Shown here piece after piece: positions 6,501 through 49,300 of a stretch of 64,000 bases of DNA. Each line of letters begins with the position of its first letter. The stretch's first letter is position 1. The notes beneath the pieces were generated by a model, which worked only from the letters and a program-made list of their open reading frames with translations, was not told the DNA's origin and ran no database searches. Location of the stretch: NCBI RefSeq assembly GCF_964204645.1, contig NC_134025.1, positions 30,410,001 through 30,474,000 of the forward strand. The letters are read 5' to 3'. Origin of the DNA: Tubulanus polymorphus. Lineage: Eukaryota > Nemertea > Palaeonemertea > Tubulaniformes > Tubulanidae. Both the position numbers and the translations under genes were made by a program.

Positions 6501-8353
6501 GCCCCTGGTTTTTGACATGAATGCTACTTACATGATGATCCCATGTGTGAAATGAAAATTGCTTGCCACCGATTTCGTACGTATATTTCTGATCTTCCTT
6601 CAACGACTATAGAACAATATGTAGAATTCATTCAATCACGATCCTTCCACAATTGTGATTTCAATTTATAAAACTAATTCATTTTCAATGAGTTAGCTCA
6701 ACAAACGTCAAATGTTTAACTCAGAACTGTGCAAATGGATCCATGAGATTCTATCAACTACAGTCAAACTCACTTAAAATTCGGACGCAAAACAAAAGTT
6801 TAAGGGAAACAATAATTTCAGGAACTGAGAATCAGGGATAACAGATCATTTTCAGGAACTGAGAATCAGGGATGACAAATCATTTTCAGGAACTGAGAAT
6901 CAGGGATGATTGGTAAAACAGCTCTGAACCCGGTCCGGTGATGAATCGATGAATGAATGAATGTTATACCTGAATTTCATATCTCATAATCCAGTGTTTG
7001 GCGTATGTATTATTCATTAGTTGACCGTCAACTGTATCAGTACGCGTGAACTCATTTGGATTCGCAGATTTTATCGTGATTGTATCTTGTTTTTTATCGT
7101 AAGTCCACATTATTACTCGATCGAGGAACGGATCGGGACCCAACGATAAGTGGACGCCCTCTCTCGCCGATTCAACAGGTTGCGGCGCCGGGTTTACCGA
7201 TGGTATCGGTACACCTGGTTGCGGCTTGTTCGCCGGTGACTGCGTTGTCTTAGACTGGTTACCCGATGATTGTTGCGAAGTTTTGGACTGGTTGCCAGAT
7301 GTTTGAGTTTGATTCCCGGACGGTTTATTTTTTGCATCTGAAATGTTTACGAAAATGAGTCATTAATTAAAAAAAAAACTAATTAATTCAGACAAATATC
7401 GAGAATCTAATTAGAAATTCATGCGAAACAAACTTCCATTATTTACTGTCGCATATCTATATTTTCTATTCATATTTTACTAGACTGAAATACGAAGTAC
7501 TTGACACGGTATATTTCAATATTGGTTTTAATATGTCTGTCTAGTAGAAATGGCTCTTCATAGCGCTCAGTTATACCGTATATACAGCAGCTGGTGGCAA
7601 CTGTTAGTACATACAGCCAGCTATATTCATGCGTAGAAAGTCTGATCAATGCTATCAGTTTCACAATGAAAATAACGTTTGTTCCCATTTTTTTGGTATA
7701 AATGATTTTATACGCAGTCGAAATGAAGTATACAGCGGAACACCTCGTGAAGAGGTAGAAATCCACGACGTGTCGCAAATAAACACTCACATTGAAAACA
7801 AATAAATCATGTTTAGGTATTTTCATTTCAGAATGATAATGATCATAGATTTAATTTTGATAATTCAGAAAATAATTACCCTTTAAAATATTTAACCCAT
7901 TGAGCCTCAATAACTAATTTTTCAATTCACACTGGTACATAGTTGTAATCCTTGTTTTTAGTTGAAACCCAAAAATTCTGAATATTTAATAATTTTTTTG
8001 ATGTTTTAAATCTTTGGGTTTTTCATTGTATATAAAACTATCGGTTAGGCCACAGCAAACAGATTTCCTGGTGCATTGAAGTTCGTTATAACAAGGTTCT
8101 ACTATAGAACTATACAAACAATGTTCTCCCTGAAGTTCAAGGTTCCACTGATCAGTTATAATGAACAGATTTTCAAGTTGCCCAAAGTTTGTTGTCACAA
8201 GGTTCTACTGTATATAGAAGTGCACCTGAACGAATGATTGTTGCATCTGTTACCGTTACCTGTGATATTATTCTTCGCAGCTGCATCTGTTAAAATCCAG
8301 AAGTTCAACGCGACGAAGCAACAAACAACAAAAACTGCTTTCAACATTTCCAT
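3528..8353 (-). CDS. ACP7-like (purple acid phosphatase family) type I membrane protein, probable pseudoenzyme
   Basis: Nine exons on the minus strand: 8353-8260, 7337-6970, 6606-6532, 5832-5668, 5567-5492, 5409-5298, 4949-4734, 4298-4108 and 3874-3528. They total 1644 nt (547 aa plus stop) with consistent phases. Order: signal peptide (about residues 1-26), Ser/Asn/Gln linker with SGNQSKT repeats, the N-terminal PAP domain (GVHLSLGPDPF...), a PAP catalytic-like domain (about 180-430), a membrane span ending near 516 and a basic tail. The family normally hydrolyses phosphomonoesters with a two-metal site built by five motifs. Only motif IV survives intact (SHRPIYC, H349). Motif I (GDxG) is LYGG, motif II keeps Asp229 but lacks its Tyr (GDWSC), the GNHE motif is GEKD (257-260), and the final AHEH is AQDN (385-388). 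The fold is therefore probably kept without catalysis. Family call is firm; loss of activity is inference. Confidence 0.9.
4445..4690. mobile_element. Dispersed element, cttacagatcaggga family (copy 1)
   Basis: It lies in the last-but-two intron of the ACP7-like gene. Both ends read as inverted ttacagatcag(a/g)ga. In reverse orientation it shares tggcacaaggaatctct and nearby blocks with copies at 14480-14620 and 58918-59092. It is non-coding and about 245 bp. Confidence 0.55.
5890..6005. mobile_element. Short palindromic element with nested taagaccagtctta
   Basis: Intronic in the ACP7-like gene. It contains the nested palindromes gactagtctaaactatctta and taagaccagtcttgag and ends tgtgccctggaacc, matching the element at 3162-3271. 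The left boundary is uncertain. Confidence 0.45.
6157..6508. mobile_element. Head-to-head pair of tRNA-like (SINE-type) sequences forming a large inverted repeat
   Basis: The left arm (6157-6300) and right arm (about 6370-6508) are imperfect reverse complements of roughly 130-140 bp. Each arm carries a Pol III B-box-like core (gattcgaacctgatg on one strand, ggttcgaatccctgc on the other) plus an A-box-like ccgtggctgagtgtag or related block. The ~70-bp centre is unique. A third B-box-bearing fragment of similar sequence is at about 5020-5060. All lie in introns of the ACP7-like gene. Confidence 0.6.
6829..6910. repeat. Short tandem repeat, ~36-bp unit, 2.5 copies
   Basis: The block ttttcaggaactgagaatca recurs at about 36-bp spacing, within the ACP7-like intron just past the donor of the 6970-7337 exon on the minus strand. 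Confidence 0.8.
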
Positions 8354-11172: not shown

Positions 11173-11263
<91 letters not shown>

Positions 11264-14200: not shown

Positions 14201-17200
14201 ATCCACCGACGGTTTGAAAGCTGAAGCCGAAGAACGCAACAAAAAAATGCAAGAACTCAATCGCTTCATGCATTATTATACACGGTTTAAAAATCATGAA
14301 CACAGTTTTAAGGTAAAGCTTGAATGAATAGATGAGATTTATCCATACATTCAGTCGTACATGTAATTATTAATGTTTTGGTTTTATAGTTAGAGGAACC
14401 ACTGTTGAGTACAGCGAAGGAGAAAATGATGATTTTAGCCCGAGCTGTAACAGATCAAGGTAAAGAGACATTCACAAAATCAGGGAATTCTGTCTCTTTT
14501 CTTATAAAATCAGGGAATTTGAATTTTTGATATCGTGTTGTTTTTGCTGGTTATGACTGGCACAATGAACCTCTTGAAAAGAAACAGCCCCCATTCCCTG
14601 ATCCATAAAAACCCTGTTAAATCTAGCTGATATATGTAAATTGATTTTTGAATACTCAGAAACAGCGAATGATGAAACTAAGTTTGTAGAAGATGCAGTT
14701 CATCAACTCTTACGAGGACGACGTGTTCTGAAATGTAGCTACGTTTACGGTTATTATCTGGATGATTCCGGTTATAAACGAACTATATTTGAATTCATGC
14801 AGGTAATTACCGCTCCCTTCCTAAATCAGTAGCGTCTGATGTGTGTAACTCACCGAGTTAAGAATCGGGAGAATAGAAGGTTTATCCAAATAAGTTTGAA
14901 TGAGATACATCCAGTTGACTAGTACCGAGAAGGAATCTACCGTATTTTCATGAATCTTTTTCAAAATTTGAGAAATGTTCGAATGTATTTTAAAGAGATG
15001 ATGATGATGATGATGATGTTTACTATTTTCAGACGGAACTCGAAGAATGTCTAGAGAACCTCTCGCAGATGGTCGCCCGTCCATATCTACGAACACCTCG
15101 CGGTCGTATCATTCAACAATCGCATCTCGTACAACGTAAACGCCACGAATTCGTCACGGCGATCAATAAAGGATTGATTCCTCCCGATTCGTCGCCGAAC
15201 TTTCGTAAAAAGCGGCGTAAAACTTTAGACGTAAGTAGATAATTACGCGTCACATACTGTCTCCTCACTCCGGTGTCTGCGGGTTTTTTTCATTGTAATG
15301 TTGTTTATTCAGGAGGATATTCTGCGCAGTTTAAATCTTGATCCATCCCTTTTACATCAGGTAATAAAATCTGGACCGTCGAGAATTGAGGAGAATATTC
15401 CTGCTGAAGTGATAGTTCTAGTCGTACAGTTAATCTCGTGTAGAAGTCGTCATCGTTGGCATCCAATTCATGATTTCATGTCTTATTTTTCTGATTCTAT
15501 ACAAATTTTTGCCAGTTTGTCCGATATTTACTGTAAATTCAATCGGAAATAAGAAATTTGGACTCAAAAGTAGAGACAACTTCAGAATATTGTGATGATT
15601 TATCCGATGATGACTTAATGCGATTTGACTATACGATCAGATCCCAACCGCTTAATCCGCATTTCGATCTTATCCAGATATTATTCACGGTATACATCTG
15701 GACCCGGTCCCACAATTGTGAGAGTTAAACTCTGTGACTTTTAGTCCTTTAGTTCATTCGCAATGGGTTCAGTATGGTTGATTCAGATTTCTCATATAAA
15801 CTGACTCAGGTCCTGAATGATCCGGATTAAGCGGTTTTCACTGTTTTATCACCTTTCCATCAAATTCAAATTGTGTTCGAAAAAAAACGATGAAAATCAG
15901 ATGGTTGTTTTGTGTTGTATTTTCAGGATGATTTACGTAAAGCGTTGATGGCTTCGATGTCGGATATCGATCCTAATAATCCGTGGGTTAAAGATAAAGC
16001 GGGTCGACACACGAACGTAGCCGCGTTGCTCGACTGGCCCGACGACGACACCGACGAATCGGACGCGGAATCATCACCGAAGAATACGTGTAAAGAATCG
16101 GGAATTTGTTGTCGTCATAATTGTAAACGAACGCGAGCGGTGAATCCACGAACAGGAACCATTCACAATCACTGCAGTCTACGCTGTATGAGATTAGATA
16201 AACTAGAGAATAGAAATGAGAGCGATGGTAAGTTTTCAGGGTTAGAGGTATCAGGTAGTGTAGGTTGAGGGTATCAGAGGAGCATAGGTTGAGGGGTATC
16301 AGAGGAGCATGGCAAGGTATCTATAGCTATACATTTGGAACTGCAACTACAGTTATAATTCGGTGAAGTAATCACTGATTATCAGATCGTTTTAGATTCA
16401 GATTCCGGGGAAGTGATCACTGATTATCAGGTCGTTTTAGATTAAGATTCCGGTGAAGTGATCACTCAGATTCCGGTGAAGTGATCACTGATTATCAGAT
16501 CGTTTTAGATTCAGATTCCGGGGAAGTGATCACTGATTATCAGATCGTTTTAGATTCAGATTCCGGTGAAGTGATCACTGATTATCAGATCGTTTTAGAT
16601 TCAGATTCCGGTGAAGTGATCACTGATTATCAGATCGTTTTAGATTCAGATTCCGGGGAAGTGATCACTGATTATCAGATCGTTTTAGATTCAGATTCCG
16701 GGGAAGTGATCACTGATTATCAGATCGTTTTAGATTCAGATTCCGGGGAAGTGATCACTGATTATCAGATGGATTTATTACGTGCTCTGGAGATGTCTAG
16801 ACTACAGTATTTACGAGAGATGGGAGGAGTTACCGGACAACCATCGAATAAACCGTATGTCAATCATTCTTCTTACATCCTTTCAAACATCAAGAAACAG
16901 TTATTAAAAACTGTTTTATTTATTCGGAGATTTCTGTATGTTTTAGTTCTTGCTCATCGAACAATATTCAAGAATCTCACGAAGAATGCGCGAATAAGGA
17001 AACAATTGATGATGATGAAACAGCTGAAAATGAAGAGAACAGTTTACATTTAGAAGAGATTGATCTAGATCTACAAAGAGCAATCGAACTATCAAGAATT
17101 AGTGCTCAAGGTTAGTACGAGTACCGGGACTCTGATGTAGATTTCACTTTGAGTTGATGCTGATTAATTATTATTGATTGATTTATTAATAATTGATATA

Positions 17201-18579
17201 TGTAATTAATTCATTTCTATATTTTTATTTCTTTCTACTATACTTTATTTTCATCATAGTTTCTTCCTCATTGGAGACCTGTTTATCATAGTGTCTCCTA
17301 TATTTAAATGCTGATGCGTATTTTGTTTCTTTCAGAGGAAGAAAAACAGTTGAAACTCGCTATTCAGCTTTCATTACAAAACGACTCAACAGAAGAAGGA
17401 TGTTCTGGGAAAAGTGAACTACAATCATCTGGTAACGGTAGCAGCGGCAGCAGCAGCAACACTGATCAGCAGCAGCAGCAGCAGCAGCAGCTGCGTAAAA
17501 CATCGGAACCGTCTCGTAATATTCCCGATTGTTATTATTCGTCGTGTTACTCCACGATCGTTACTAAAGTGCCAAATAAAAGCGTCGAAGACTTGAACGA
17601 TGAGGACTACGAGAGACGTAGTCCGGATACCGGAGGAGATAAACTACTCGGAGCTGTAGGGGGCGCACCTGTCTGTAATTTCGATCCGTCGCCGTCTCAT
17701 CGACCGTCGGTATGCGAACCTCCGCCGGGATTGTTGGAGACGACGTTCACGCCGTCGAGACTCGGTAGTTCACAGTTCGGACCGATTAAAGACCTCGCTG
17801 TTACAAATATCGCGTCATCCGACCGCGACAAAACCGAGGAATTCAAAACGAAAAAATTTAAAGAACTTTTCACGAAAAAAGGCGGAGAGCACCACCATCG
17901 AACGGCGGATAGTAAAACTACGAAAGAATCAACGACCGATATAAAATTCGACGCGACCAAATTAGATCGGTTAGTTATCGAAACGGAGTATCATCTGAGA
18001 CCGAATCAGAAATCACCGACGACCTCGACGGGTCAGAGGTCGCCGATATCGCCGTGTCAGAGGTCGCCGCGAGCGTCGTCGTGCGCCGCCGAACAGTCGC
18101 AGTCGAATCAACTATTTGTCCGTCGTCATAAAACGTCGTCGAGCGATTCGAGCGCTAAAATCCGGCGTCGTCACTCGTCGGGTCCGAGCGATGAGAAGAG
18201 ATCGTCGCGACAGAAAACGTCGCGCGCTGTCCGCTATTCCGATCAGATCGATTCGTCGTCGGGGGCAACGCGTAAACATTCACGACCTCGCGAGAAGAAG
18301 TGTTACTCGTACACTGGAACGGAAACCAGCAGCGACGTGTGGATCCCGCGCATCGACGTCGATATAACTCCTCCCACAACGACAACGAGCTGTCAATCAA
18401 ACCTGGAAACGATGTTGAAGAAGTTGATCATACCGAGCGAAGACGAAGACACAAACGACGACGTTTTTTCAGATTCGAACGAACGACCCGTAAATTCAAA
18501 ACGAGACAAGAAAAAAAACGGCGATGATTCGTCGGAGGATGATGAAAATAAAACGACGTCCAGCGCCGTCTACGTGTGA
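10168..18579 (+). CDS. ANKIB1: ANKIB1, ankyrin-repeat and IBR-domain RBR-type E3 ubiquitin ligase
   Basis: Twenty-one exons: 10168-10355, 10809-11031, 11106-11162, 11333-11458, 11536-11601, 12008-12125, 12207-12409, 12739-12827, 12907-13051, 13323-13498, 13581-13669, 13751-13881, 14091-14312, 14390-14459, 14660-14802, 15033-15230, 15313-15360, 15927-16227, 16734-16854, 16947-17110 and 17336-18579. They sum to 4122 nt, 1373 aa. The protein starts [10 protein letters not shown], an N-myristoylation-like start as in the vertebrate protein, followed by ankyrin repeats (to about 198). RING1 begins CDICACL (328), then IBR and RING2 ([19 protein letters not shown]). The expected catalytic cysteine is C530. 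An Ariadne-type helical region and three UIM-like segments follow (about 877-890, 945-958 and 960-976), the last two in exons 20-21. The C-terminal exon has a Gln run and a long Ser/Arg-rich tail, making it longer than my recollection of human ANKIB1 (about 1090 aa). The acceptor of exon 19 lies inside a minisatellite, so its exact start is uncertain in 45-nt steps. Confidence 0.95.
10441..10646 (+). mobile_element. tRNA-derived SINE
   Basis: In ANKIB1 intron 1. The tRNA-like head has an A-box region (tggcgtggtggataaggtg) and a B box (gggttcgaatcc). A ~100-bp unrelated body ends in a short-repeat tail of the unit gaacta, four copies. This architecture (tRNA head, body, simple-repeat tail) is diagnostic of SINEs. 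Target duplications were not clear. Confidence 0.75.
11173..11263 (+). repeat. (GCT)n / CTG trinucleotide repeat, ~30 uninterrupted units
   Basis: A pure run of about 91 bp starts ten bases after the exon 3 donor of ANKIB1 (exon ends 11162). The transcribed strand reads CUG, so the pre-mRNA carries a (CUG)30 hairpin beside a 5' splice site. No interruptions were seen. Confidence 0.97.
11714..11922 (-). mobile_element. tRNA-derived SINE with target-site duplication
   Basis: On the minus strand the head reads ggcgcagtggccaagtggtt, a type II (Ser/Leu-like) tRNA start, with a B-box region gggttcaaaccctgg. A ~100-bp body ends in an A-rich 3' tail at 11714-11726. The element is flanked by perfect 13-bp direct repeats atttgactcaagt (11701-11713 and 11923-11935), direct evidence of retroposition. 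It lies in ANKIB1 intron 5, antisense to the gene. Confidence 0.88.
14480..14620. mobile_element. Dispersed element, atcagggaat family (copy 2)
   Basis: In ANKIB1 intron 14. It shares aaaatcagggaatttgaatt, tggcacaatgaacctctt and attccctgatc...aaccctgtta with 58918-59092 and, in reverse, 4445-4690. It is non-coding and its ends are approximate. Confidence 0.55.
16241..16311 (+). repeat. Short tandem repeat next to the exon 18 donor
   Basis: Two to three copies of a ~28-bp unit containing ggtatcagaggagcat begin about 13 bp after the ANKIB1 exon 18 donor (exon ends 16227). Confidence 0.7.
16374..16768 (+). repeat. 45-bp minisatellite carrying repeated in-frame 3' splice sites of ANKIB1 exon 19
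   Basis: Each complete unit contains tcagatcgttttag followed by attcagattccgg and gaagtgatcactgattatc. An acceptor after gttttag supplies the two bases needed by the phase-1 donor at 16227 and reads into the UIM exon. The same acceptor recurs at exon starts 16509, 16554, 16599, 16644, 16689 and 16734. All are spaced 45 nt, so every choice keeps frame and adds 15-residue units ([15 protein letters not shown]). The first two units are not productive: one carries an in-frame taa and the next is truncated. Confidence 0.9.
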
Positions 18580-34300: not shown

Positions 34301-37300
34301 AAAACCATGTGTTTCATTCATTCTCACATCTCGCCTTCGTTCAAATGTAAATGTAAAACATCTCATCGGCTGAAACTCGTCGCATTATTTAAATCAAAGC
34401 CATTTTCTACCATTCTGACCTGCTGCGTCGTTGCCATGGCAACCGAAATTACCCGGAATAGCGAGCATAAGGCATACACGAGACGACCTTGACATTTTTC
34501 GCAAGCCCGTCAGTCTTTTTATCCTATATTTGAGCAGATTTTTTCGGGTCTAATTTGGATCAAACGTAGCCAGAGTTGCACAGTTTCCGAGTCAACAGTT
34601 AACTATGTATAGATCAGGGGTCAGTTGCTCAAAAGTTGGTTAAAGATAACCGGCCGTTAAATACCACAGTAATAATGAACTTTCAATTGTCAACATATCA
34701 ACTATCCACCGGTTAACTCTAACCAACTTTTGAGCAACCGGCCCCTGACATGTGAAGGTGATTGTTCGGGTAAATGTGGGGTAAATGAAACTTACGGTGA
34801 GTATAACTTTCCGGTTTTACCCGTCGTAGTTTGCTGCATTTTCAGGTTATCTAGTTTGGTCGGACTCGGTATATATCCGACATCGCATCCTTCTTTTACT
34901 AATCGCCCGATCCACCAGTCATTATTGAATTTCTATACGACGAAAAAATAATAACGACGACCATGACAACATTAACAATTCATAGCAGACGACTTACAGT
35001 AAAACATCGGCAAAACTGAGAATCGGAAAAATAAGATCAGAGGAAATCAGAATGAGTTATTCATTAGACAGGGGTCCAGTTGATCAAATAGTGATTACAT
35101 TCGACCATCGGATAGATACAAGTCACAATTCAGTTTTAATTGTCAATGGTTTTTTAAAAGTTTTTTTTTTGGATCTTGAAATAGGAATTGTTACTCGGGC
35201 GAGGTTTACTGTATATAAAACATGGGGGGGAGGATGAAATACCTCTTTTATATGTAAGAAATCTTTACTGTATATAAAACATGGGGGGGGGGGAGGATGA
35301 AATACCTCTTTTATATGTAAGAAATCTTTACTGTATATAAAACATGGGGGGGGGAGGATGAAATACCTCTTTTATATGTAAGAAATCTTTACTGTATATA
35401 AAACATGGGGGGGAGGATGAAATACCTCTTTTATATGTAAGAAATCTTTACTGTATATAAAACATGGGGAGGAGGATAAAATACCTCTTTTATATGTAAG
35501 AAATCTTTACTGTATATAAAACATGGGGGGGAGGATGAAATACCTCTTTTATATGTAAGAAATCTTTAACTGCGAATGATACAGCACAGCCATGTACCGG
35601 AGAATCATCATCCAATGAACCATCATAAGCTACATTTGTTCGTACGGCAAACGCTACTGGTTTTGTCTGAAATAAGAAAATAATCATCAGTTGATTAAAT
35701 TACAGTAAAATGAATAATTGACATCCAAAATGTTTCCTAGATTAGAGGAAAATCAATCAAATTCAACAGGGAGGTGGTGGGGGCGATAAGACCTGCTAGC
35801 AACCTTGGAGGTGGTGGAGGTAGGGGGGGGGGGCGATAAGACCTGCTAGCAACCTGTCAGTTCAGTTCTCTGAATCCAAGACAAGCAGATATATTCAGCG
35901 ATGTTATTAACAAATCGAAAATACACAATTCCTTATTTGGGACGCAAAACAACAGTTTAACGGGGACTTTCATTCATTGCAAAGTATCGAATCATTTTCA
36001 GAGACTTTATCGTATGTAGTTAAGCTTCATGGTTCATTGAAATAATGCTCGTTATAAGCAGCGTCAGGGTTTGGTATGATGGCAGATTAATTGGGATTAG
36101 TCACTGGTCTGTTGGGTATGATTCTATATATACAGATCATATACGAGATTCTTATATGATAAAATCACGCATGAAAAACAAGTGCAAAACGTTTCGTTGA
36201 TATTCTGTAGTTTCAATTATATCCTGATTGTCATCTTCAGGAATAACTAACGTTAGATATATAAGTATTGGATTGTAGACGTCTTATACATTTGTTGTAA
36301 AATTGTATGTTGAAGATAACTTATAGTCTAATAGTTGCCGGTGAGATGAATAACAAACACGACTGTCGGACTCAAAAAGACGATGAGATTCTTACTCTAG
36401 CCTTCTCTAATTGCAGTCTAGCCTGACTCTCTGTCTCTCTTCGCAATGCCTCCCTATCTTCATCTAGCGACAAGTCTGAAGATGGTTGACTGTAATTGGA
36501 ATCTGCAGAACCCTGTTAACGAAACAAAAATATTCATTTTAAACATCGGACAAATTTCGGCGACGTTTCTACAAATCGTATCGGTTGAATCCGATAGTTC
36601 CCTCGTTGGATCTGACGGAAAATTCTTCTGTTTCTAAATAAAAACTGTTTATTTTAAACACGTGAATCTAAGATATCTCTTTCTACAGTTCGCGAAAACT
36701 CAACATTTCACACATTTTTCAGTGAAGTTTGTCTAGTATAAAACACACTGTGAGCAGCAGCACTACCTCTACCGATGATCACGAGTGATCACGAGTGATC
36801 ACGAGTGCTGGTCTTTACCTTCCCTAAATCGATGCCATTCTCAACTACTTTACGTGTAATAGTTTTATCAGTTACCATCCTGCAACCGCTCGAATCACCA
36901 GCCTCATTTCAATTAAGAGAAAAATTAGATGATTAGTATCGTTAATGTTTGACTCAATTTTACAATTTTAACAGTTCTTGAAAATTCTCATGCGCAGGCA
37001 GAGCATTAGTATCAAAACAGCAACACTATTTATGATGGGCGTCGGTCGACTTGTGACGCAATCCTGGGAATGATCACTAAATAACAACAGTGTGTGAATA
37101 GTCTCTCTCGATCACGAGATATCATAATTCATTGCAGTGAATTTATTTCGATATTTGCATCGATACGAGAGTTATTTCTAGAGATAAGCCGCGATTGATC
37201 ATTATTTAGAAATTCCCGGATGTTGAAGAGTCACTCGGTATTTATCAAGGAATGAGAATAATTTGTGAAATCCGACCCTCGACGCAGCAGCCATTTCTAA

Positions 37301-43300: not shown

Positions 43301-46300
43301 CTGTAAAAATATAGTCACACACCAAAATAACATCACATCGTGAAGATCGAAGAGACTTATAGAACACGAGAGAATGACGGGAGATAAGAGGGGGGGGTCA
43401 TACCTAGGTTAACATTCAGGGCCACACCGAAAAAATTACACATATCATTATTCGCTAATTCACCTCAATTATCAATAACTAATCAGTATAGCGCCGCCGG
43501 TAGTTTATCATCACGCCGACAGATGGCAGCACTAATCAAATATTACATTTAACATCATCGAGAGTAATGTACGCATACTGCGCTGCACCGATACATTCAC
43601 ACACTTATACCAACTAGTCAGCACTAGCCAATATAAAATAATACATTTCATAATATAACCGATATTTATACGAGCAAGCTGAAAATAATCCACATTTCTA
43701 CAAATAATCCTGGAAATAATTCCTCAAATAGCGATACAACAGTCAGCATAGGAGCAAAAATCATCAAACAATTAAAATTCAGGTTCATCCTGTATTGATT
43801 GCTGGTAGTTAGGTCTATATGGCAGCATTCTGCAGGGGATTGATACCCGATTGGGGAGGATTGATACCTGAGTGGGGAGGATTGATACCGGAGTGGGGAG
43901 GATTGATACCGGAGTGGGGAGGATTGATACCCGAGTGGGGAGGATTGATACCCGAGTGGGGAGGATTGATACCCGAGTGGGGAGGATTGATACCTGAGTG
44001 GGGAGGATTGATACCGGAGTGGGGAGGATTGATACCTGAGTGGGGAGGATTGATACCGGAGTGGGGAGGATTGATACCCAAGTGGGGAGGATTGATACCC
44101 GAGTGGGGAGGATTGGTACCCGAGTGGGGAGGATTGGTACCCGAGTGGGGAGGATTGATACCTGAGTGGGGAGGATTGATACCTGAGTGGGGAGGATTGA
44201 TACCTGAGTGGGGAGGATTGATTCCTGAGTGGGGAGGATTGATTCCTGAGTGGGGAGGATTGATACTGGAGTGGGGAGGATTGATTCCTGAGTGGGGAGG
44301 ATTGATTCCCGAGTGGGGAGGATTGATACCCGAATGGGGAGGATTGATACCCGAATGGGGAGGATTGATACCCGATTGGGGAGGATTGATTCCTGAGTGG
44401 GGAGGATTGATACCTGAGTGGGGAGGATTGATACCGGAGTAGGGAGGATTGATACCTGAGTGGGGAGGATTGATACCTGAGTGGGGAGGATTGATACCTG
44501 AGTGGGGAGGATTGATTCCTGAGTTGGGAGGATTGATACCTGAGTGGGGAGGATTGATACCGGAGTGGGGAGGATTGATTCCTGAGTGGGGAGGATTGAT
44601 ACCTGAGTGGGGAGGATTGATTCCCGAGTGGGGAGGATTGATACCCGAATGGGTAGGATTGATACCCGAATGGGGAGGATTGATACCCGATTGGGGAGGA
44701 TTGATTCCTGAGTGGGGAGGATTGATACCGGAGTAGGGAGGATTGATACCTGAGTGGGGAGGATTGATACCTGAGTGGGGAGGATTGATACTGGAGTGGG
44801 GAGGATTGATACTGGAGTGGGAAGGATTGATTCCCAATCGGGGAGGATTGATACCGGAGTGGGGAGGATTGATACCGGAGTGGGGAGGATTGATACCGGA
44901 GTGGGGAGGATTGGTTCCTGAGTGGGGAGGATTGGTACCCGAGTGGGGAGGATTGATACCCGAGTGGGGAGGATTGATACCCGAGTGGGGAGGATTGATA
45001 CCGGAGTGGGGAGGATTGATACCTGAGAGGGGAGGATTGGTACCCGAGTGGGGAGGATTGATACCTGAGAGGGGAGGATTGGTACCCGAGTGGGGAGGAT
45101 TGATACCGGAGTGGGGAGGATTGATTCCTGAATGGGGAGGATTGATACCCGAGTGGGGAGGATTGATACCTGAGTGGGGAGGATTGATACCCGAGTGGGG
45201 AGGATTGATTCCTGAGTGGGAAGGATTGATTCCCGATCAGGGAGGATTGATACCTGATCGGGGAGGATTGTAGGATATTTTATAAGCTATCATATAATCA
45301 TTAAACGGTTCTAAGCTGAACAATCTAAATCATCAGCGATTTGCCGGCGATCCTCTTTCAACTCTGCTGCTGTCGGCTGAGTTTTCAAAATTAGTCGTAA
45401 TGTTTGCCATATTGAACATTCAATCATATACACTATTGGCATGCTAACTAAGCAATGTTACCATAACAACGGGAGACGGGCTTCGGATGAGCACGGGGGA
45501 CGGGAGAGAGAAATACAAGTTCATTTAGTACAATGAAGACACAGACTGTAGCTGCAGCTACCGATCAGACCGCAGCAGCTACAGCTACCGATCAGACCGC
45601 AGCAGCTACAGCTACCGATCAGACCGCAGCAGCTACAGCTACCGATCAGACCACAGCAGCTACAGCTACCGATCAGACCGCAGCAGCTACAGCTACCGAT
45701 CAGACCGCAGCAGCTGCAGCTACCGATCAGACCGCAGCAGCTACAGCTACCGATCAGACCGCAGCAGCTACAGCTACCGATCAGACCGCAGCAGCTACAG
45801 CTACCGATCAGACCGCAGCAGCTACAGCTACCGATCTGACTGCAGCAGCTACAGCTACCGATCAGACCGCAGCAGCTACAGCTACCGATCAATTGACGTT
45901 CATTTGAAAATTCCCTCATCACGACCGATCATTGTAAAAATTAACCCCTTAAAAAATTTACGGTGAGAAAAATTAGCACAAAATCAAGGCTCTGATTCTA
46001 TCCAAAAGTGGAAAAGAAAAATGAGTAAAATAAGTAGATTCTAAAAATAATGGCAGATGGGTCCAGTTACTGAGTTGTTGGTTGGTTTGACTAATTCCAA
46101 CAAGTTGTCAATACCTGACATTCGAGATTAAAACATTCAAAAATCTGTTTTAGCAAAAATTGCTGCATTTGTTTCTGTCGATTAATAGTGTGAAAACAGA
46201 AACCAAACTCTGTTTTAATTCAATCAATTCGAGATCAAGTCTTTAAAAATACAGCGATTAAACAACAATGATTATCAATCAGTTTCAGTTCTCTGTCGAA

Positions 46301-49300
46301 ATGAGAATCAAAACGACTACATCTAAGTCAAATTTCAATGAAAACTGTTAGTATAAAACAGGGTCCAGTTTCACAGATCTTCGACTAACTTATGATCTCA
46401 TTTCAACTGTTAAGACTCGGATCTAAAATAATCGACAGGTTTCTGTGGAACTGGATTCACAGCTGTAAATAAAGAAGAATATACAATAAACATTACCAAA
46501 ATTCTGTAATATTCCAGTACATAACTCATCCCCAACAAGATGACATTGACATCATGTTAACAAGCATACAATACTGATCATCGTTTATATTGCATACATT
46601 ATAATATAGAAATAACGATGCCACACCTAACTGTACACGCTGTAGTTATATATACCTATATAGATAAACCCTCTAATATTGAAGCTTTAAGCACAATTAC
46701 AATACAGGCATTCAGCTTCGGGTTATCGTCTATATTTTTCATTACCGATATAAAATTGAATGCATAAATTCTCATTTGCATAAAAAGCTCGAGGCTACGA
46801 AATAGTTTTTCTTTTTTATTTTTAGGAAAAACCTGTGATCTTTCATCTAACGTTAAACGCCTTCGAATATATCTCCACCCGAAGGCATAACCGAAAAAAA
46901 ACCGGTCGAGATTCGCGGAACCGTAGCCCAGTTATAGAACGTTAGAGAAGAGACAGTAGTGATTAATCCTCAGAAAAAATTTATGGATAATATAAATAAA
47001 TGAATCATTTATCCTTGAAGATTTTTTGGCAGTTAATAGCAGCATCATACCCTGAGATACAAACAGGTGCCACAGAGAGAGAGGCCGAGGGATTATCCAG
47101 CCTACACCAGGTACAATGAACCCGTACAGAAACATTATAGGTAAAGCATAATAAATAGTTTAGACTAAGTATTATTAGCAACACAGATGAAAATGTATGT
47201 TTAGTCGGAGATAAACACATTGGTTCAGGTATATATGTATATATGTGTGTAACTCAGTGTGAGGAAGACTTATTTCTTTTTACGCATATAGCTTCAATAT
47301 GCAGTGTCTTTAGTTTGGTGTCTATAGCTTCATACAAACTATATTATCTTAGCCAGAAGTGGATCCAGAGGTGGGATACAGGGTGTTACTAGACTGGGCC
47401 GGATACAGGGCGTTACTAAATAGGGCTGGATACAGGGTGTTACTAGACTGGGCCGGATACAGGGTGCTACTAAATAGGGCTGGATACAGGATGTTACTAA
47501 ACAGGGCTGGATACAGGGTGTTACTAAATAGGGCTGGATACAGGGTGTTACTAAACAGGGCTGGATACAGGGTGTTACTAAATAGGGCTGGATACAGGGT
47601 GTTACTAGACCGGTCTCGATACAGGGTGTTACTAAACTAGGCTGGATACAGGGTGTTACTAAATAGGGCTGGATACAGGGTGTTACTAAATAGGGCTGGA
47701 TACAGGGTGTTACTAAATAAGGCTGGATACAGGGTGTTACTAAACAGGGCTGGATACAGGGTGTTACTAAATAGGGCTGGATACAGGGTGTTACTAAACA
47801 GGGGTGGATACAGGGTGTTACTAAACTGGGCTGGATACAGGGTGTTACTAAATAGGGCTGGATACAGGGTGTTACTAGACCGGTCTCGATACAGGGTGTT
47901 ACTGAACTGGGCTGGATACAGGGTGTTACTAAACTGGGCTGGATACAGGGTGTTACTAGACTGGGCCGGATACAGGGTGTTACTAAATAGGGCTGGATAC
48001 AGGGTGTTACTAAATAGGGCTGGATACAGGGTGTTACTAGACTGGGCCGGATACAGGGTGTTACTAAACTGGGCTGGATACAGGGTGTTACTAGACCGGT
48101 CTCAATACAGGGTGTTACTAAACTGGGCTGGATACAGGGTGTTACTAGACCGGTCTCGATACAGGGTGTTACTAAACAGGGCTGGATACAGGGTGTTACT
48201 AGACCGGTCTCGATACAGGGTGTTACTAAACAGGGCTGGATACAGGGTGTTACTAGACCAGTCTCGATACAGGGTGTTACTAGATGTTATTTTTTTCAAC
48301 TATTGATCTTTCAGAAGGTATCATTCGTAATCTAACCTCGAAAATTTTCAAAATCAAACTCACATTTGGTGCATTATGAGGAAATAAGTTGAATTTATAA
48401 CTAGATAGGAAATAACTAGAGCTATGGATCCACCTCAGGCACCAATACCTCATCGATTATGAAGTTTGATACAGGAAAAACTGTTACATTATGACTGTGT
48501 TATCTGTATGTATACTGGTAGGGTAAGGCATGTACATGTATATGTATTAACGTACGGTATGTGCGTATATGTGTATATGTATGTGTGTAGCAGGTGAGAG
48601 AACCACCTCACTCCACTCACTCCTCTCTACTTAACACACGACCGAGAGAGACAGACGGACGGACAGACAGACAGACAGACGGACAGACAGACAGACAGAG
48701 AGAGAGAGAGTTAATCATATGTAAAATGAATACTGTTGTTATAGTCATTTTTTAACGATTACATTAAAAAACCCTCAATTCCAAGCGTTGTCCGAGAACT
48801 GTGCTTCGTGCTGCTGTATGTTATTATTGAAGTAAATAGAGACAGCAAGGAGCGCAGCAGCCGCAGCCGCAGCAGCAGCAACAGATCAGCCAGCGTGCGA
48901 ATACCACCACAGTCACAACCCATTGCCGCAGCCTGCTCCTCACATACTCGATATATAATAGTCGTATTACATACTAAATTCTTGAAGCAATTATGAAGAA
49001 CAATCTGTTGAGCGTTGTCGCCATCCTCGTCGCCGTAGTTACTAGTTCCGTTTGTTCGTTGTTGCTTTTGTAACCGATAGCTACGTTTTCGATATACTCC
49101 GCTTTTTGGATGATGATCTAAAAGACGATTTTCAACTGCAGCCGTCCGGGAATCGGTCCGGGAATCGGTCCGGGAATCATTCCGCGAATCACTCCGCGAA
49201 TCGGTTCGCGGATCACAATCAGACGCCGTCATTTGATTTGCCCGAAATAACTGTCAATTATACATCATCATAGATCACTGTGACAAATATATACTGGGGG

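Follow-up and report, generated by a model that had tools for sequence, protein, structure and literature searches.

The window, the whole stretch of 64,000 nucleotides that was analysed, contains on its plus strand an ANKIB1-type gene (about 10.17 to 18.58 kb) whose predicted product shows ankyrin, RBR and Ariadne domains and C-terminal UIMs. Its exons were located by tblastn searches in which a human ANKIB1 sequence served solely as a guide, and Pfam matched the product to IBR_1 (E=9.9e-15), Ariadne (E=4.9e-8) and UIM (E=1e-6), as well as to IBR. From its predicted product the gene is identified as ANKIB1, an ankyrin plus RBR E3 ligase. An uninterrupted run of some 30 GCT triplets is found at 11173-11263, beginning 10 nt past the donor of an early ANKIB1 exon. 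Further downstream, a minisatellite spans the boundary between an intron and the following exon, and a second boundary-spanning array lies in a calcium-channel beta-subunit gene (CACNB) on the opposite strand. The features are the following (a slash marks a splice junction):

15927-16227, plus strand: exon upstream of the array, with a tttcag acceptor, a gtaagt donor and an open frame
16228-16360, plus strand: intron before the array, within which no acceptor gives an open frame
16361-16771, plus strand: boundary-spanning minisatellite, from repeat finding and unit alignment, at one genomic place
16361-16508, plus strand: degenerate donor-proximal copies and a 23-bp partial duplication, whose acceptors 16396 and 16441 lead to premature stops
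16509-16733, plus strand: five near-identical full units, each with CTGAT, gttttag and attcag, encoding in-frame 15-residue repeats
16734-16854, plus strand: 3'-most copy together with the unique remainder of the exon, 121 nt long (115 nt with the attcag at 16740 as acceptor)
16947-17110, plus strand: next exon, with a gttttag acceptor, a gttagt donor and a Pfam UIM match (E=0.0025)
17336-18579, plus strand: last coding exon, with an open frame and a Pfam UIM match (E=3.7e-4)
35205-35568, minus strand: CACNB donor array, the second mirage (see below), with six copies of a 59-bp unit containing AAAGAG/GTATTT and the real exon end at 35544

The exon upstream of the array ends in phase 1 at GAGAGCGATG/gtaagt, with the donor junction at 16227/16228 (G/AT), and the array exon ends at aaacc/gtatgt, with its donor at 16855. 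The array consists of about 8.6 tandem copies of a 45-bp unit, which runs from the last bases of the ANKIB1 intron through gttttag and 35 nt of the next exon, plus a 23-bp partial copy. Its main part (16466-16777) was reported by Tandem Repeats Finder with a period of 45, 6.9 copies, a match of 98% and a score of 589, which is far above chance. An earlier note on this DNA had described six identical gttttag acceptors 45 nt apart, and this spacing is exact: exon starts behind gttttag/att are found at 16509, 16554, 16599, 16644, 16689 and 16734. While these six copies are real, the tally was too low, as gttttag is kept in 8/8 copies of an array that starts at about 16361, and the two further copies, which are donor-proximal (16396 and 16441), truncate the protein. 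A 23-bp partial duplication at 16445-16489 shifts the repeat register, and the last six units differ solely at GGG/GGT, a synonymous change. The genome search placed the array at a single location in the assembly, and no second genomic copy, second haplotype or retrocopy of the array sequence was found there. The repeat units were not more stable in RNA folding than their shuffles, so a structural RNA role is unsupported.

Tandem repeats that span exon-intron boundaries were named mirages in amphioxus, where they were described in Adh3, globins, troponin C and PGBD5; regular splicing was reported to be undisturbed although many of the extra copies retain splice signals (PMC3087553, PMC3902484). 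With a boundary-spanning unit, 8 copies and retained AG signals, the ANKIB1 array is a mirage by its structure.

All AGs between 16250 and the exon end were read in the phase of the donor. Those that keep the frame of the gene open are confined to the final part of the array and to positions further into the exon. The phase of all six acceptors from 16509 to 16734 matches the donor at 16227/16228, and from each of the six the frame stays open until the regular stop codon, in agreement with what the earlier note had proposed. By contrast with these, acceptor 16396 leads to an in-frame TAA after 16 codons and acceptor 16441 to a TAA after one codon. Between 16250 and the array, none of the AGs is open. 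Skipping of the array exon was ruled out by a frameshift with a stop about 34 codons on, the length of this exon being 1 mod 3, as needed to join 16227 with 16947 in frame. On these reading-frame grounds, at least one of the duplicated acceptors is very probably functional. The frame tests also support that the last six copies would be interchangeable in frame and that a change in copy number would be tolerable in frame. The acceptor contexts are identical, so the copy in use cannot be read from the DNA.

Besides gttttag, each unit holds two further in-phase AGs. Counted from a CTGAT that resembles a branch point, the CAG lies 7 nt downstream, ttttag 17 nt and attcag 23 nt. According to a scoring matrix built from 17 other acceptors of the same gene, a small set, attcag/attcc (+6) reaches 6.35 bits versus 2.44 bits for ttttag, with a median of 9.1 at real sites, and most genuine ANKIB1 acceptors outscore every array copy. 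AGs that lie within 12-15 nt of the branch point can be passed over, and those separated by less than 12 nt compete via the preceding base (PMC1431707). Under this rule, the CAG 7 nt past CTGAT would be skipped while ttttag and attcag would compete, so the exon could start at either of them, with a difference of two residues.

Two statements on the encoded protein had to be corrected. The array exon had been described as bearing a UIM; Pfam gives no UIM match to the UIM-like motif there. The additional residues had been placed before the first UIM; a weak UIM match (Pfam E=0.021) is already found at the start of the preceding exon (15927-16227). Each unit does encode 15 residues as had been stated, but four of them are acidic, rather than all 15, and the peptide is acidic and aliphatic. 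SUMO-interacting motifs have a four-residue hydrophobic core with acidic or phosphorylatable flanks (PMC12751080). The junction of each unit reads QIVL-DSDS, with three of the four core residues hydrophobic; strict patterns fail and a loose one matches, as it does in 5% of shuffled units, and the resemblance of the predicted peptide to a SUMO-interacting motif is weak. A comparison with solved structures gave no convincing match to the repeat. It is extremely unlikely that the array would be an evolvable valency switch, in which acceptor choice and allele length would set the number of SUMO-motif lookalikes before the C-terminal UIMs, giving a variable reader of SUMO plus ubiquitin similar to RAP80.

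Boundary-spanning arrays recur in this genome. In CACNB, whose exons were located with a human guide sequence in tblastn, use of the extra donors would be out of frame or run into stops. These copies cannot code, which indicates that boundary arrays form here regardless of coding sense. In each CACNB unit, the duplicated end of the exon is also preceded by TATATACAG, which resembles an acceptor, and micro-exons would be possible in principle. The survey covered 72 exon-centred loci elsewhere in the genome, from the myosin, chaperonin and phosphagen-kinase families, and in one of them the donor of a myosin exon, AAATCCCG/GTAAGA (YLLEKSR/gtaaga), occurs three times, in divergent copies of roughly 65-70 bp (L026:1612-1772). 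Altogether, boundary arrays were found in three cases among about 110 exons examined, which is not a calibrated rate. A further candidate (L038) was discarded, as it lies just inside the intron and does not span the boundary.

In the window, 13.7% of the sequence lies in arrays with a period of at least 12; the corresponding share in the first 61 surveyed loci is about 5%. The period was divisible by 3 in 31 of the 68 sampled arrays and about half of their frames were open, so selection need not be invoked to explain a 45-bp unit that is in frame and open. Long minisatellites are found in the window at 1-1169, 43837-45270 and 47374-48282, with units of 27, 21 and 27 bp, respectively, and 34-68 copies. 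In addition, a 34-bp repeat at 6816-6909 contains TTTCAG in each of its 2.8 copies and lies near a phosphatase-like gene, on the opposite strand. Among the surveyed families, one muscle-type myosin gene (G000 C4:4125126-4126944) shows four consecutive matches to myosin-head positions 112/119-152, which look like a cluster of mutually exclusive exons, and about 10 phosphagen-kinase copies are clustered at G000 C8:12.69-12.85 Mb.

The best explanation, to which we assign a probability of about 0.7, is that the ANKIB1 array is a neutral mirage, a minisatellite straddling an acceptor of which mostly one copy is used. The array would have been created by tandem duplication of a stretch at the intron-exon boundary, probably through the instability common to minisatellites, which are abundant in this genome; its units would have become homogenised recently, and it would be tolerated as splicing still yields an in-frame exon. 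The acceptor of productive mRNA would lie within the last six copies or in the partial copy at 16470, at either ttttag or attcag. Most mRNA would come from a single favoured copy, with the 3'-most (16734/16740) as the likelier candidate and the others behaving as intron; occasional use of an upstream open copy would add 15 residues per copy, and use of 16396 or 16441 would give transcripts destined for decay. As the unit is frame-neutral, changes in copy number and acceptor slippage would be tolerable, not necessarily useful. The preference for the last copy is weakened by the identical upstream contexts, which offer no local reason for it. Furthermore, duplicated splice sites tend to favour the copy nearer the donor, a tendency that points towards the truncating copies and against a preference for the 3'-most one. 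Stops and the break of the frame occur only in the two donor-proximal copies, a distribution that selection for an intact reading frame could produce as well.

A reading closer to that of the earlier note is that the array forms a regulated or allele-dependent linker: several of the six open acceptors would be used appreciably, adding 0 to 5 extra 15-residue units, and individuals would differ in array length, with consequences for the protein. The phase and openness of all six acceptors agree with it, as do the alternative transcripts that arise from human boundary repeats, where minisatellites within segmental duplications alter splicing and both transcripts are supported in most curated intron cases (PMC2812944), and one amphioxus globin mirage that exists in haplotypes with 6 and 3 units (PMC3087553). 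However, two equivalent copies nearer the donor truncate the protein, the non-coding CACNB array shows that a coding role is unnecessary for such arrays, the amphioxus mirages were reported to leave regular splicing undisturbed, even where haplotypes differ in copy number, and an in-frame open unit is unremarkable given the survey frequencies. We regard such a linker as possible, though on the unlikely side.

The array could also be simply exonic, a constitutive coding VNTR that starts at an acceptor at or near 16470/16509 and in which ttttag is read as part of the codons GTT TTA G. The frame is indeed open without a break from 16457 to the donor at 16855, and the sole change among the last six units is synonymous, although one synonymous site carries no statistical weight. 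The first open acceptor shares its context with all the others, nothing marks a unique start, and the copies further upstream are equally acceptor-like; a purely exonic array is unlikely. An incorrect copy number, by collapse or expansion in the assembler, has to be considered as well, as near-identical 45-bp units are difficult for short-read assembly. We judge such an artefact very improbable, because the distinguishing variants occur in a definite order of units, a 32-Mb contig encloses the locus and the genome contains many arrays of a similar kind.

The locus offers a natural experiment in which six near-identical in-frame 3' splice sites and two truncating ones are found in a single intron, a setting in which junction reads would make the choice of the spliceosome among equal acceptors, by position alone, directly measurable. 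If several acceptors were used, linker length in a ligase would be under simple genetic control through the number of copies.

The closest matches of the muscle myosin exons were squid and scallop myosin, in database entries that we take to belong to these animals, and those of the phosphagen kinases were two-domain invertebrate enzymes. No match was found in the genome for COX1, GFP, molluscan haemocyanin or annelid erythrocruorin-linker, the last three being searches without a positive control. The host is tentatively considered a lophotrochozoan, whereas amphioxus is a cephalochordate. A literature search of incomplete coverage found no report of mirages beyond cephalochordates, and if the host is a lophotrochozoan, the present arrays would extend mirages beyond that group.

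The ANKIB1 array is a further example of an already known type of repeat. As in the amphioxus mirages (Adh3, BflGb6/BflGb9, troponin C and PGBD5), the unit holds a splice site with intron and exon on either side of it. Donor and acceptor versions are common to amphioxus and this genome, with AG/GT signals in many units, and in the amphioxus mirages as well as in the array described here the inner repeats are homogenised while those at the edge of the cluster diverge. They differ in the unit, which is 150-160 bp in the amphioxus globin mirages and 45 bp, divisible by 3 and with six copies in frame, in ANKIB1. The human boundary repeats (PMC2812944) are likewise minisatellites at exon-intron boundaries, with units of about 30 bp; they can alter splicing, the repeat being either retained in the exon or lost from it. 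The human cases were established by comparing recent paralogs and with transcript support, while the ANKIB1 array is present at one genomic place. Finally, ANKIB1 shares with NAGNAG-type tandem acceptors (3' junction wobble) close in-phase AGs, its ttttag and attcag being 6 nt apart; unlike them, it duplicates a whole 3' splice site together with a branch-point-like motif, in steps of 45 nt.
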